Positions 2,371 to 6,412 of a DNA stretch of 64,000 nucleotides are shown here, in pieces. The stretch covers positions 445,365-509,364 of the forward strand of contig CP166960.1 in the NCBI GenBank assembly GCA_041447175.1, read 5' to 3'. The position numbers and the translations under genes were made by a program. How positions within the stretch are numbered: position 1 is the first letter of the stretch; each line of letters begins with the position of its first letter. The notes under the pieces were generated by a model. It had not been told where the DNA came from and did not search any database. It worked only from the letters and a program-made list of their open reading frames with translations. The stretch is from Candidatus Bathyarchaeia archaeon (GTDB lineage Archaea; Thermoproteota; Bathyarchaeia; Bathyarchaeales; Bathycorpusculaceae).

Positions 2371-2841
2371 TTATAAGTTGAGCCTTCCATTTCCTGCCTG
2401 TTTGTTTAGCTTTTTGACTGCCATTATGCTTTCTAAAAGAAACGCTGCTATGGCAATTCCTGTGATGGTCATGCCTATTGCATAGTAGGTTTTGACAACA
2501 TCGGTTTCCCATTGCCAATGAATCGCCAAAACAAACACTTCCAAAAAAAGCAGAAACGCAAAGAAGAAACAGTAAATCATTGTTCGGGGTAAAAGTTTTC
2601 TTCCAACCCAGAAAAACCCGCCTACTTTAGCTTTCTTTTTAAGAATGTATTCGCCATACTGGTTTCTTGTCAATAACCCGTCTGATTCTAAATTTTGCAG
2701 GTGCCTGTGTGCAACGCTTGGACTGCTGAGGCTTAATCCATGCATGACTTCTCGTGGACCCAATGGCTTTCTTTGTTTAGCCACGTACATGTACACGTTA
2801 AACGCGAGCCCTTCAAGCTTCTTTTCGTGGCTGTTAGGCAT
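2371..2841 (-). CDS. Winged-helix regulator with two C-terminal membrane helices
   Basis: 156 residues. Residues ~10-70 form a winged helix (GPREVMHGLSLSSPSVAHRH, then a wing ending EYILKKK). Residues ~80-140 contain two strongly hydrophobic segments, so the protein is probably a membrane-anchored DNA-binding regulator. The start ATG follows GGGGA at 8 nt. It is convergent with nusA and downstream of, but not coupled to, the SMC operon. The signal sensed is unknown. Confidence 0.75.
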   Translation of the reverse strand: MPNSHEKKLEGLAFNVYMYVAKQRKPLGPREVMHGLSLSSPSVAHRHLQNLESDGLLTRNQYGEYILKKKAKVGGFFWVGRKLLPRTMIYCFFFAFLLFLEVFVLAIHWQWETDVVKTYYAIGMTITGIAIAAFLLESIMAVKKLNKQAGNGRLNL

Positions 2842-2995: not shown

Positions 2996-3637
2996 TTACT
3001 GACTGTTCTCTTCATCTTGCGCTTCATCTGTTTCAAGTTCTTCATCTGGTTGACTTTGTTTGGGTGTATTGTTTTCTTCTTCGCTTCTTAGCAGCAAATC
3101 AATCAATGCTTTTTCGTCCACTTCTGCGCGTGTTCGCCAATCCAGATACAACTGCTCGTTATCATCCTGTTGCAGGTAGCCATAGCGGATGTATCGGTCA
3201 AGGTTTAAGCCGACTTTCCAACCCGCGATTTTTTCTCCCAGCAATTCTTCTACGTCTCGGCGTGCAGCTTGCCCCTTTTTGCTGATGATGTAAGAGATGG
3301 TTATGGCTAAGCCTGCTAAGTCGTCTATTCGCCACCCAATCATCTTGGCTTCTTTAGGCTCTAACTCCCCACGCAGCGTCACGTAGAACCGTGCCTTATC
3401 CATCTCGTCCACTGTTGGTTTCTCAGGGTTCTTCTCCTGTTCATAAACGGTTTTAACCTGCAAATCCAGCGGCTTCAAAAAATCGTCCAGCAAATCCAAA
3501 ACCTTCGGGTAGTCTGAGCCTATGGCTTTGTGGAGTTCCCAGCCTTTAACGCCGGGTTTTTGGTGCCTCCGATAAAAAAGCATATGTGTGGCACGTTTCA
3601 TTTTCGCGGCGTATGCGCCTTTCTTTTTGGTACTCAA
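2996..3637 (-). CDS. Tandem winged-helix (KITE/Nse-like) partner of a short SMC complex
   Basis: Third gene of an SMC operon. It has two winged-helix-like regions: residues ~15-100 (WELHKAIGSDYPKVLDLLDD) and ~115-180 (YIISKKGQAARRDVEELLGE, then NLDRYIRYGYL with a wing ending YLDWRTRAEVD). An acidic, Glu/Gln-rich tail follows. This matches the kleisin-interacting tandem winged-helix (KITE) plan of ScpB, MukE and Nse1/Nse3; the function is inferred from that and from position. I place the start at TTG 3637, which overlaps the upstream stop as TTGA and has GGAG at 7 nt. A GTG at 3658 is possible but lacks a ribosome site. Confidence 0.7.
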   Translation of the reverse strand: MSTKKKGAYAAKMKRATHMLFYRRHQKPGVKGWELHKAIGSDYPKVLDLLDDFLKPLDLQVKTVYEQEKNPEKPTVDEMDKARFYVTLRGELEPKEAKMIGWRIDDLAGLAITISYIISKKGQAARRDVEELLGEKIAGWKVGLNLDRYIRYGYLQQDDNEQLYLDWRTRAEVDEKALIDLLLRSEEENNTPKQSQPDEELETDEAQDEENSQ

Positions 3638-4482
3638 CTTGATTCTCCTCTTTTCCACTTCTGCCAGCTTTCAAACGTAAGCGTTACAGGCACGGAGACA
3701 GCTTGCATGTTAAGTTTTACCGCTGGCTCCTCAAGGGGGAGGATGTAAATTTCTTCTTCCAGCGGGATTACCTCTAAGGTGGCGTACCCGTAAGTGACTA
3801 AGAAGCTGGTTATGTAGGCTCGGTGAACGGTCTGCTCGTAGGTTTCTGCACCCACCCAGTCCATATAAAGAAGTTTTCCTTCTTTACTTTCCTTTTCCGC
3901 TTTCTCCTTGAGTTCTGTCCAGAATCTATCAAGTTCGGCAGAGAACGCTTCATCTCGCAGAACATTTTGATCCACCAATTCTCCTCTACTGGCGACACCC
4001 GTTGCGACTTCAGTTACGGCTGTTTGCTCCCAGCGTTCCCTGATTGGCACAAGCGCATTCCAATACCGCATTGCGTCTGCCATGGCATGCAGGGTTATCT
4101 GCTCCTGCTCCACGATTGGGTGCCACGCCTTAAGAAACAGTTGAACCATTTCCTGTTTGTCTTTCAGGATAATTTTTTCTTCCAGCAAAAACGGGTCGGT
4201 ATACAGTGAGGTGCTACGTTGTTTAACCCACTCACTTTGCAGCTTAATCACTGATGCTAAGTGGTGGATGGCTTCGGAGTCAAGATTAAGCTCTTCAGGT
4301 TGGTCCCACGAGGGAAAATACTCCTGAACAATGCGGATGATTTCGTCAACGTTTAGAAGGAAAGGGTCTACGGTGTGGGCTTCGATGCCCCTCATCATGT
4401 CGATGACCCGTTCAAGCCGGTCCCTGCCCAGTTTCTTAGCCTCTTTTTGTTCCTTTGGGCTCTTAGGGTTTTGTGCCTGCAT
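3634..4482 (-). CDS. Kleisin-like (ScpA-related) subunit of a short SMC complex
   Basis: 282 residues between the SMC ATPase and the winged-helix protein. The N-terminal ~100 residues follow the ScpA pattern: VDPFLLNVDEIIRIVQ, then an ELNLDSEAIHHLASVIKLQS helix like the ScpA segment that binds the SMC neck. A charged linker follows, and a C-terminal winged-helix-like end (TYGYATLEVIPLEEEIYILP) that would bind the SMC cap. ATG 4482 lies one base after the SMC stop, so the genes are translationally coupled. The kleisin call rests on pattern and operon order and would need a profile search. Confidence 0.65.
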   Translation of the reverse strand: MQAQNPKSPKEQKEAKKLGRDRLERVIDMMRGIEAHTVDPFLLNVDEIIRIVQEYFPSWDQPEELNLDSEAIHHLASVIKLQSEWVKQRSTSLYTDPFLLEEKIILKDKQEMVQLFLKAWHPIVEQEQITLHAMADAMRYWNALVPIRERWEQTAVTEVATGVASRGELVDQNVLRDEAFSAELDRFWTELKEKAEKESKEGKLLYMDWVGAETYEQTVHRAYITSFLVTYGYATLEVIPLEEEIYILPLEEPAVKLNMQAVSVPVTLTFESWQKWKRGESS

Positions 4483-4483
4483 T

Positions 4484-6412
4484 TCACTGCACCTCACGCA
4501 CCATAGATTTGCCTTCCACATTCTGCACCGCAACGATGTTGGCGTTTTCCTGCGCAAACGTAACTTGGCTGGGCGTGATAACGATGTATTGGGCGTTGGC
4601 GTCTTTGATGGTTGATATGAGAATTTTGGCTATCATCTCGCGGTTGCGTGGATCCATGTGAATGTCATATTCGTCCACGGCTCGAAACGGCGACCGTACA
4701 TGCTGCTGTAGGGCTAAAAGGAAACTCATGGTTGCTGTGGTTCGCTCGCCGCCGCTTTGTGTGTATGCGTTTAAGGGCACGGGTTTTCCGCCTTTGAAGC
4801 CCACCATAATCTCCAGTCCCGCGGTTTCAATGTCCTGAGTGTTACTCAAACGGACTTCACCTGTGGCGCGGGTTTGCCCCATAATCCGCTGGTACTCGCG
4901 GTTGACGCGTTCCAACAAATCCTGCATAACGTTGCGCCAACTCTGCATGCGCGCCGAAACCTCATCGAGGGCTTTTTGGCGGTTCTCAGCCACCATCTGC
5001 GCTTTCTGCTTAAGCTCCAAAAAGAGCTTACTGTAAGACTCATATTGCCGCTCGATGTCTTCTGAGACACTGGAAAGCGCGGCGAGGTGCCCGTCGGTGA
5101 GACGAATCTCGTCTTGAATGTCTGCGACATTCTTTGTAACAGCAATTCTCGCACCAGAATGCAAGGCCTTAGCAACCGCTGCGTCCAGAGCCGTTTGAGC
5201 GTTTCTGATGGCAGATTCAAGTTTGCGGAGCTCTTTGGTTGAGTTTTCTTTTCGGAACTCTAACAGTGCCAACTGGATTTTGTGTGAAACAATTTTGAGG
5301 GTAAGTGCCTCGGCTTTCTCTTCTGCAGTGGCGATTTTAGCTTGTGCATCACTGTTTTTCTCGTGGAAACCTTTGAGCTGTTGATGGCTGTTTTCGATGA
5401 GGCGTTGAAGATTCTCAGGACGCAAAAATTCAAGTTGACCCACGGTTTTGGTGCCTTGCAACGTTTCGTTTAGCAGTTGTGCTTCAGTTAACAGCTTTTC
5501 AGCTAAGGTAACTGTTGCTTCTTCGGAGGCGATTTCATGCTCCAGTTTTAGGCGTTGTTCAAAAAGTGCTTTACCTTCGCTCTTCAGCTTGTCCTGCTGG
5601 ATGCTCTCTTTCTCCACTTGCTCTTTGTTGGTTTGGTTTTCTTTTTCGATGTGCTCCAACGTCTGCTGGAGTTTCTGTTTGTCAGCTTCAATGTCTTTTA
5701 GTGCATTTTCTTTACGTTCCACTTCTGCCCACGCGAGTTCGCGTTCCAAAAAGCGCCGCTTGGTTTGAAGCTGTTTTTTTTCTTGATATTTGTCGTATTG
5801 TTCACGCCAGTAGTTGAGGGTTTGCTCGGCGGACTCTAACAGTTTACCCACGGATTCGGATTGGCTTAGGATACGGGTTAATTTCTGCTGAGCTTGCACC
5901 ACGTTTTCGCGGAACGGCTCCAATCCGACGGCGGCTTCCACCATGTGAAGCTTGTCGGTGTTGCTTAAAAGGCTGAATTGTTCCACCATGTTCTGGTGCA
6001 TGATGATGAGCATGTTGTCGGGGTCCACGCCGAACCTGCCCAGCAGCCGCTGAACTTCCTGTTTGGTGGCGGCTTTGTTTTCCAGTTCAAACCAGTATTG
6101 TCCGTCGCGGCGGAGGTGGCGGGTGAGAAAGAGTTGGTCTTTGCTGTACTTGGCGACTGGGCGTCTGCCGTGTTGTTTACTGTTGTCTAAAACGACGGTG
6201 ACGCGAGCTTGGTCGTTGCCCCAGCGGATGAGGTTGCTGAGTTTTTTGCTGCGCTCCGTGTAGGTTTGCCCTAACGCTACCGAGATTGCCAAAAGCAAGC
6301 TGGATTTGCCTGCTCCGTTGGGTCCAACGATGAGGTTGACGCCCTGCTTAAAGGAGACTCTAGCGTATTCGTAGCTCATGAAGTTTTGAAGTATAACTTC
6401 GGATATCAGCAT
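4484..6412 (-). CDS. Short SMC-family ATPase with Smc5/6-type head motifs
   Basis: 642-residue ABC-type ATPase. Walker A is GPNGAGKSS (K36), followed by LSNLIRWGNDQARVTV, which resembles the Smc5/6 N-head. About residues 165-490 are charged coiled coil. The C-head carries QSGGERTTATMSFLLAL (from residue ~552) and Walker B in PFRAVDEYDIHMDPRNRE; the PFR...DE.D..MD..NR layout is characteristic of Smc5/Smc6. Canonical SMCs have ~1,100-1,200 residues, so the arms are short, and no ~150-residue hinge or CxxC zinc hook is seen. Head of a three-gene operon; no ribosome site at the ATG, so a leaderless transcript is likely. A coalescin-like protein is an alternative. Confidence 0.85.
   Translation of the reverse strand: MLISEVILQNFMSYEYARVSFKQGVNLIVGPNGAGKSSLLLAISVALGQTYTERSKKLSNLIRWGNDQARVTVVLDNSKQHGRRPVAKYSKDQLFLTRHLRRDGQYWFELENKAATKQEVQRLLGRFGVDPDNMLIIMHQNMVEQFSLLSNTDKLHMVEAAVGLEPFRENVVQAQQKLTRILSQSESVGKLLESAEQTLNYWREQYDKYQEKKQLQTKRRFLERELAWAEVERKENALKDIEADKQKLQQTLEHIEKENQTNKEQVEKESIQQDKLKSEGKALFEQRLKLEHEIASEEATVTLAEKLLTEAQLLNETLQGTKTVGQLEFLRPENLQRLIENSHQQLKGFHEKNSDAQAKIATAEEKAEALTLKIVSHKIQLALLEFRKENSTKELRKLESAIRNAQTALDAAVAKALHSGARIAVTKNVADIQDEIRLTDGHLAALSSVSEDIERQYESYSKLFLELKQKAQMVAENRQKALDEVSARMQSWRNVMQDLLERVNREYQRIMGQTRATGEVRLSNTQDIETAGLEIMVGFKGGKPVPLNAYTQSGGERTTATMSFLLALQQHVRSPFRAVDEYDIHMDPRNREMIAKILISTIKDANAQYIVITPSQVTFAQENANIVAVQNVEGKSMVREVQ

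Follow-up and report, generated by a model that had tools for sequence, protein, structure and literature searches.

A three-gene SMC-kleisin-KITE operon of Bathyarchaeia and its relationship to the Smc5/6 core

Smc5/6 is the least understood of the eukaryotic SMC complexes, and its origin is open. The window analyzed here, a 64,000-nucleotide stretch of a Bathyarchaeia genome, carries consecutive minus-strand genes for an SMC-family ATPase, a kleisin and a KITE subunit, and raises the question of which SMC complex this trio belongs with. We conclude that the trio very probably specifies an archaeal SMC-kleisin-KITE complex in which each subunit is homologous to its counterpart in the Smc5/6 core (Smc5/Smc6-Nse4-Nse1/Nse3), and which is paralogous to the Smc-ScpA-ScpB system of the same genome. 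With a single motor gene and a single KITE gene, a minimal archaeal Smc5/6 of three genes would open both the ancestral function and the duplication of subunits to testing. It would also show that whole complexes, in prokaryotes already, were divided by the split between Smc1–4 and Smc5–6.

A coupled operon and its distribution

The trio is translationally coupled and is read on the minus strand from window position 6412 to 2996. The SMC-family ATPase gene (6412-4484, minus strand, 642 aa) is separated by a 1-bp gap after its stop codon from the kleisin gene (4482-3634, minus strand, 282 aa), whose own stop codon overlaps the TTG start of the KITE gene (3637-2996, minus strand, 213 aa from TTG) within a TTGA at 3634..3637 on the same strand. 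These coordinates bear out both junctions of the head-to-tail arrangement described in the sequence-only reading. The TTG at 3637 fits as the KITE start, with an alternative GTG upstream at 3658 in the list of open reading frames, and an identical kleisin/KITE TTG overlap is found in related loci L056, L058 and L059. No fourth gene, a JetD Toprim nuclease included, was found in the operon of the window.

Most of 60 homologous loci, from approximately 24 families, display the SMC-kleisin-KITE gene order at near-zero spacing. Across 201 genomes, the SMC gene was found in 93, the kleisin gene in 91, the KITE gene in 90 and all three in 89, the trio occurring separately from Smc-ScpA-ScpB. Because the gene order recurs at such spacing and the trio co-occurs genome-wide, the operon is confirmed as real, far beyond chance. 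Distance matrices of the three proteins are correlated (r 0.85-0.91). The KITE gene occurs once per genome; genome G000 has one SMC gene of the trio family, its nearest other SMC being a canonical SMC. When genome contigs were scanned for relatives, nearly all of the best 80 of 373 matches were titled Bathyarchaeota.

Affinities of the three subunits

The ATPase motifs are intact and comprise a Walker A (GPNGAGKS), a signature (QSGGER), a Walker B/D-loop (FRAVDEYDIHMDP) and an ITP motif; the signature and Walker B motifs quoted beforehand, QSGGERTTATMSFLLAL and PFRAVDEYDIHMDPRNRE, were confirmed in the SMC protein. The ATPase had been proposed to be closer to Smc5/Smc6 than to ScpAB-type SMC, and the profile comparisons and phylogeny agree. 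Smc5 and Smc6 were the top PDB matches of the window ATPase alone. A profile of 40 family members scored 231.6 bits against Smc5 and 229.3 against Smc6, followed by Smc2 (158.6), Smc3 (131.6), Smc1 (120.6) and Smc4 (113.6), whereas a profile of the phylum's canonical SMC gave the reverse ranking, with Smc2 at 426.6 bits, Smc3 at 412.2, Smc4 at 373.7, Smc1 at 357.9, Smc5 at 127.5 and Smc6 at 94.9. Rad50-like outgroups were added since an unrooted tree failed to place Smc5/6. In the resulting Rad50-rooted tree, sampled with only one Smc6 (on a very long branch), two Smc5, one Smc2 and one Smc3, the trio ATPases grouped with Smc5/6 at 97.1/100. Two alternative topologies were rejected by the AU test (p=0.025-0.029) and were not rejected by the SH test. 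Assignment of the trio ATPase to ASRP/ClsN is not supported, as the NCBIfam ASRP model gives 62.7 bits where its cut-off is 300. No SMC_hinge match was detected in the trio SMC proteins, in which 214-325 residues separate the invariant W202 and W492, corresponding to arms of approximately 107-160 residues each.

Single-protein scans with Pfam, NCBIfam, PADLOC and PHROGs left the window kleisin and KITE almost unmatched, so family profiles were needed, and significance for these two subunits comes from family members and profiles rather than from the window proteins alone. The kleisin consists of a helical N-terminal domain and a C-terminal winged helix of the Nse4 type. Pfam Nse4_C was matched by 37 of 51 family members (best E 3.5e-7), the window kleisin itself matching weakly (E 0.0064), and the four best PDB matches of the family profile were all Nse4 (E 7e-5). 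A genome-wide Nse4_C search gave matches in 32 of 200 genomes, all of them within trio kleisin genes when coordinates were compared, and in 0 of 14 control genomes. Nse4 chains occupied Foldseek ranks 1-2 for the AlphaFold model of the kleisin, with a modest E of 3e-3, and VIA-align gave Z scores of 9.3, 9.1 and 9.0 against Nse4. By profile and predicted model, the C-terminal domain of the kleisin is thus Nse4-like in sequence and structure. Of the earlier description of a kleisin with an ScpA-like N-terminus, the kleisin identity stands; the N-terminal region aligns weakly with ScpA (E 0.074).

Among 50 KITE members, the two most frequent Pfam families were MAGE/Nse3 (17 members) and Nse1 (10 members); the window KITE itself did not match Pfam MAGE. 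Genome-wide, the eukaryotic MAGE model returned 7 weak matches at E<=0.01, 6 in trio KITE proteins and one unrelated outside the trio. The KITE alignment profile yielded nothing meaningful against PDB, and fold comparison was informative instead. The top matches of the AlphaFold model were chains of the Nse1-Nse3-Nse4 complex, with Nse3 and Nse1 best (Foldseek E 3.4e-5; VIA Z 13.1 over 174 residues), in keeping with the tandem winged-helix KITE that had been read from the sequence. Trio KITE proteins contain at most 2 cysteines (median 0) and carry no RING. A search for zf-Nse (Nse2) gave no match in 62 genomes, but none in any control either. Family matches and the model indicate that the trio KITE resembles Nse1/Nse3 rather than ScpB, and the Smc5/6 link therefore reaches the kleisin and KITE, further than had been claimed. 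The best matches did not fall to Rad50 or RecF, and both partners have the kleisin or winged-helix character anticipated for them.

These comparisons bear on the reading of the trio as a diverged Smc-ScpA-ScpB condensin, in which truncated versions of the usual archaeal proteins would resemble Smc5/6 by convergence or through generic SMC similarity. The gene order is that of the canonical operon located elsewhere in this genome (SMC of 1182 aa, ScpA, ScpB), and the C-terminal domain of the kleisin aligns with ScpA by profile (E 1.3e-5, 73 columns), as does, weakly, the N-terminal region noted above. However, the canonical system is separately present in the same genome, its profiles rank Smc1-4 and Rad21 first (its ScpA profile matching ScpA, Rad21 and CAP-H2 and no Nse4), profile comparison of KITE with ScpB gives a probability of 0.9%, and the tree and AU tests put the ATPase with Smc5/6. 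The condensin reading is largely refuted and keeps hardly any probability.

Neighborhood and proposed role

In 25 of the 60 loci, drawn from many families, the trio has a gene for an Lhr-type helicase (950 aa) nearby, usually convergent and adjoining the KITE gene; in the window, helicase and trio are not adjacent. The helicase has DEAD_assoc and WH_Lhr domains and scores 489.7 bits with PRK13767, under the model cut-off of 849. No nuclease cluster, JetD-like nucleases included, was found among the recurrent neighbors of the 60 loci. No relatives were found in viral contigs with the ATPase query, in plasmids with the KITE query or in phages with the kleisin query.

It is hypothesized that the trio forms a complex acting on DNA as an ATP-driven clamp or motor, with a likely role, like that of Smc5/6, in maintaining or folding the chromosome and/or repairing DNA. 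By analogy with the family, the SMC protein would form a homodimer in which the heads of two copies sandwich ATP. The kleisin would bridge this dimer asymmetrically, with the helical N-terminal domain contacting one neck and the C-terminal winged helix contacting the other head. KITE proteins bound to the kleisin would shut the clamp over DNA resting on the engaged heads, and hydrolysis of ATP would then open or move the clamp. Since the short arms leave no space for a hinge, a compact clamp is proposed, and a second SMC dimer contact, if any, would be at the coiled-coil tips. The apparent absence of the hinge challenges the requirements for an SMC motor.

A Wadjet-like (JetABC) complex defending against plasmids or viruses would have the same SMC-kleisin-KITE composition, and the window KITE does show one weak PADLOC match to JetB (E 0.0048) and a structural match of its model to a JetABC chain (Z 9.0); human Smc5/6, moreover, takes part in restricting extrachromosomal DNA (PMC10586767). 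Against defense, the window operon lacks a JetD-type nuclease and no nuclease cluster is among the recurrent neighbors; the trio is single-copy and broadly distributed, with congruent distances of its three proteins; its conserved neighbor is an Lhr-type helicase; and the ATPase was not found in viral contigs, the KITE in plasmids or the kleisin in phages. The ATPase, in addition, groups with Smc5/6, and its PADLOC matches are generic AAA/SMC families. We consider a Wadjet-like complex improbable. Of the roles offered by the sequence-only reading for a minimal archaeal Smc5/6 relative, namely folding, repair or anti-plasmid defense, the last is the weakest and is unlikely, because no JetD-like neighbor recurs and the parts searched were not found in viral contigs, plasmids or phages; the Smc5/6 relationship itself holds.

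Within the preferred Smc5/6-like reading, the complex could be specialized for repair of fork or recombination intermediates rather than for chromosome folding, partnered with the Lhr-type helicase. The recurrent helicase neighbor favors this variant, and genomes that also carry canonical SMC would divide labor. Neighborhood is not function, however, and in the window itself the helicase gene does not adjoin the trio. Of 35 trio-bearing genomes examined, 18 yielded no detectable hinge-bearing SMC, a pattern suggestive of a general chromosome role in those genomes. We hold the repair variant as a serious possibility, with somewhat more doubt than belief.

Because all three trio proteins best match Smc5/6 parts, the data suggest that the Smc5/6 core predates eukaryotes. 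A broader proposal, for and against which we are evenly divided, is that the whole core (motor, Nse4-type kleisin and unduplicated Nse1/Nse3-type KITE) was archaeal before eukaryotes, that Smc5 with Smc6 and Nse1 with Nse3 are duplicates of single ancestral subunits, and that in several archaeal families the hinge-less version is the sole SMC-kleisin complex and organizes the chromosome.

Comparison with known systems

Coalescin ClsN and the other archaea-specific SMC-related proteins (ASRP) are, like the trio ATPase, archaeal SMC-superfamily ATPases outside canonical SMC; PMC9389158 mentions no kleisin for them. Wadjet JetABCD and MukBEF share the SMC-kleisin-KITE architecture; the trio differs from JetABCD in having no JetD nuclease, and the model of its KITE resembles Nse1/3 more closely than it does MukE, JetB or ScpB.

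Archaeal Smc-ScpA(-ScpB) has the same operon order. Its SMC is approximately 1180 aa long with a hinge, whereas the trio SMC has 642 aa and no detected hinge, and its profiles point to Smc1-4 and Rad21 whereas those of the trio point to Smc5/6 and Nse4. The trio partners did not match the Pfam ScpA or ScpB families. Archaeal ScpA has been reported not to bind ScpB (PMC7055376). The view published there, of archaeal Smc complexes as generally devoid of KITE subunits, is qualified by the trio KITE.

The Smc5/6 affinity of the ATPase is already known: archaeal SMCs grouping with eukaryotic SMC5/6 were reported by Yoshinaga and Inagaki (2021), as cited in PMC9389158, and these "SMC5/6-related" proteins are very probably the same ATPase family as the trio SMC. 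The word "kleisin" is absent from PMC9389158, and the literature on SMC5/6-related SMCs, to the extent available, treats the ATPase only. We found no publication that describes the kleisin and KITE partners, a preprint from 2024 on the roots of SMC in prokaryotes lying outside this scope. The trio has one SMC gene, presumably for a homodimer, where Smc5/6 has Smc5 and Smc6; one KITE gene without a RING, where Smc5/6 has a RING-bearing Nse1 and Nse3; and much shorter arms without a detected hinge. It is alike in head sequence, including PFR before Walker B, the DEFD/MDPxNR stretch and the ITP motif, in the Nse4-type C-terminal winged helix of its kleisin, and in a tandem winged-helix KITE of the Nse1/Nse3 type.

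Organization and conservation of the operon

Three coupled genes on the minus strand of the window (6412-2996), hereafter the trio, encode an SMC-type ATPase (642 aa; 6412-4484), a kleisin (282 aa; 4482-3634) that begins after a 1-bp gap, and a KITE protein (213 aa; 3637-2996) whose TTG start overlaps the kleisin stop as TTGA. This coupled layout had been proposed by the sequence-only reading and agrees with the ORF positions. The source genome is a single contig of 2.73 Mb. Neighbors in the window are an rpoA''-L30e-NusA operon and a PAS/histidine-kinase-like ORF, the neighbors being identified by eye. An ORF downstream of the KITE gene (2371-2841, minus strand) encodes a 156-aa protein that has a winged helix (IclR/LexA-like HTH) and apparent membrane segments and is absent from the recurrent neighbor clusters listed.

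Adjacency and order of the trio genes are near-constant across 60 homologous loci of the same phylum, with spacings of a few bases. Of 201 genomes searched genome-wide, 89 encode the complete trio, against individual totals of 93 for the SMC, 91 for the kleisin and 90 for the KITE; drafts with contig ends are among the small number that have an incomplete trio. Pairwise protein distances among the three subunits are correlated (r = 0.85-0.91). All three genes are also retained in family f34, where the kleisin and KITE genes lie some kilobases from the SMC gene on the opposite strand, and at locus L081 (one genome of family f15), where the kleisin-KITE pair is divergent from the SMC gene. Within the window's own family, the three genes are jointly missing from genomes G080, G094, G148 and G166. 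An Lhr-type helicase gene (DEAD_assoc, WH_Lhr) is found near the trio in 25/60 loci, mostly convergent and directly after the KITE gene. Upstream of the SMC gene, 21/60 loci encode a conserved protein of ~230 aa, mostly divergently transcribed (e.g. L039:6848-7543, minus strand), that had no match in Pfam or NCBIfam and is a possible additional partner.

Relationship of the subunits to Smc5/6

Searched alone against all PDB sequences, the window ATPase matched Smc5 best (E 9e-31), followed by Smc6 and prokaryotic Smc. A 40-member trio-ATPase profile scored Smc5 at 232 bits and Smc6 at 229, ahead of Smc2 (159), Smc3 (132), Smc1 (121) and Smc4 (114), whereas the control, a canonical SMC profile of the same phylum, ranked Smc2 (427), Smc3 (412), Smc4 (374) and Smc1 (358) before Smc5 (127) and Smc6 (95). 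In alignments, the trio ATPase and Smc5/6 share a PFR preceding Walker B and a DEFD/MDPxNR stretch that canonical SMCs lack, and at the position of the canonical VSLK/VTLK they carry ITP, or LTP in the case of Smc6. A maximum likelihood tree of head domains was rooted with Rad50-like proteins; its eukaryotic sampling is thin (sequences taken from PDB alignments) and Smc2 and Smc3 are represented by the N-terminal head only, and in it Smc5/6 groups with the trio (SH-aLRT 97.1, UFBoot 100) opposite canonical SMC with Smc2/Smc3 (92.7/97). The AU test rejected trees in which either Smc5/6 or the trio joined canonical SMC (p 0.025, 0.029); the SH test did not.

The trio SMC is short-armed, with 442-562 residues from Walker A to the signature and only 214-325 between the invariant Trp202 and Trp492. 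SMC_hinge matched the canonical SMC but no part of the trio SMC from the same genomes, and the trio SMC has no zinc-hook CxxC. The arm tip may carry a very small dimerization element.

Pfam Nse4_C matched 37/51 trio kleisins (best 3.5e-7) and was by far the commonest family among them. Against PDB, the first four matches of the trio-kleisin profile were Nse4 chains (E 7e-5), with ScpA following weakly; the canonical ScpA profile found ScpA, Rad21 and CAP-H2, and Nse4 was absent from its matches. In the reverse search, the Pfam eukaryotic Nse4 model matched 32/200 genomes and 0/14 control genomes, and comparison with gene coordinates placed all of the matches within trio kleisin genes. The AlphaFold model of the kleisin (pLDDT 82) combines an N-terminal helical domain with a winged helix at the C terminus. 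Structurally it is closest to three chains of Nse4 (Foldseek E 3e-3; VIA Z 9.3, 9.1, 9.0), followed by the ScpA C-domain.

Among KITE members, MAGE/Nse3 (17/50) and Nse1 (10/50) were the commonest Pfam families; E-values for single proteins were weak, at best 1.2e-4 and 2.2e-4, respectively. The KITE is modeled as a tandem winged helix (AlphaFold, pLDDT 86) closest to chains of the Nse1-Nse3-Nse4 complex and MAGE-G1-Nse1 (Foldseek E 3e-5 to 1e-4; VIA Z 13.1 over 174 residues, rmsd 3.9), which outrank MukE, JetB and ScpB. Profile comparison of the trio KITE with archaeal ScpB showed no similarity, and the trio KITE has no RING.

Coexistence with the canonical SMC system

The window's genome also has a canonical operon of a hinge-bearing 1182-aa SMC, ScpA and ScpB, 1.4 Mb from the trio SMC. 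The trio and a hinge-bearing SMC occur together in 17 of the 61 phylum genomes checked, the hinge-bearing SMC alone in 9 and neither in 17. In a further 18, G017 among them, the trio is present but no hinge-bearing SMC was detected; the trio may therefore be the sole SMC-kleisin complex in several families.

In several lineages the canonical SMC locus lies only ~10-16 kb from the trio SMC: G016 C7, G027 C5, G059 C5 and G015/G031 (family f15). The f15 canonical SMC (1303-1306 aa; e.g. L232:5655-9572, minus strand) contains an apparent intein directly after the Walker A GSGK (junction GRNGSGK/CIAPWTII), TIGR01445 intein_Nterm matching at the model's cut-off and the SMC match resuming at residue 200.

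Predicted function and comparison with known complexes

By analogy with the established mechanism of SMC-kleisin complexes, and given its intact ATPase motifs, the trio would act as an ATP-driven DNA clamp. A role in chromosome folding or repair is suggested; one in defense is less likely. Queries with the trio ATPase against viral contigs, the KITE against plasmids and the kleisin against phages returned no relative.

An archaeal 'SMC5/6-related' ATPase has already been published (PMC9389158, citing Yoshinaga & Inagaki 2021), and it has been argued that Smc complexes in archaea are without KITE subunits (PMC7055376). The literature searched, which did not include a 2024 preprint on where SMC complexes have their roots among prokaryotes, yielded no description of archaeal Nse4- or Nse1/3-type partners, so priority is uncertain. 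The simplest reading is that the trio is a predicted complex, an archaeal homolog of the Smc5/6 core as a whole, differing from it in having one motor and one KITE, each of which resembles both members of the eukaryotic pair.
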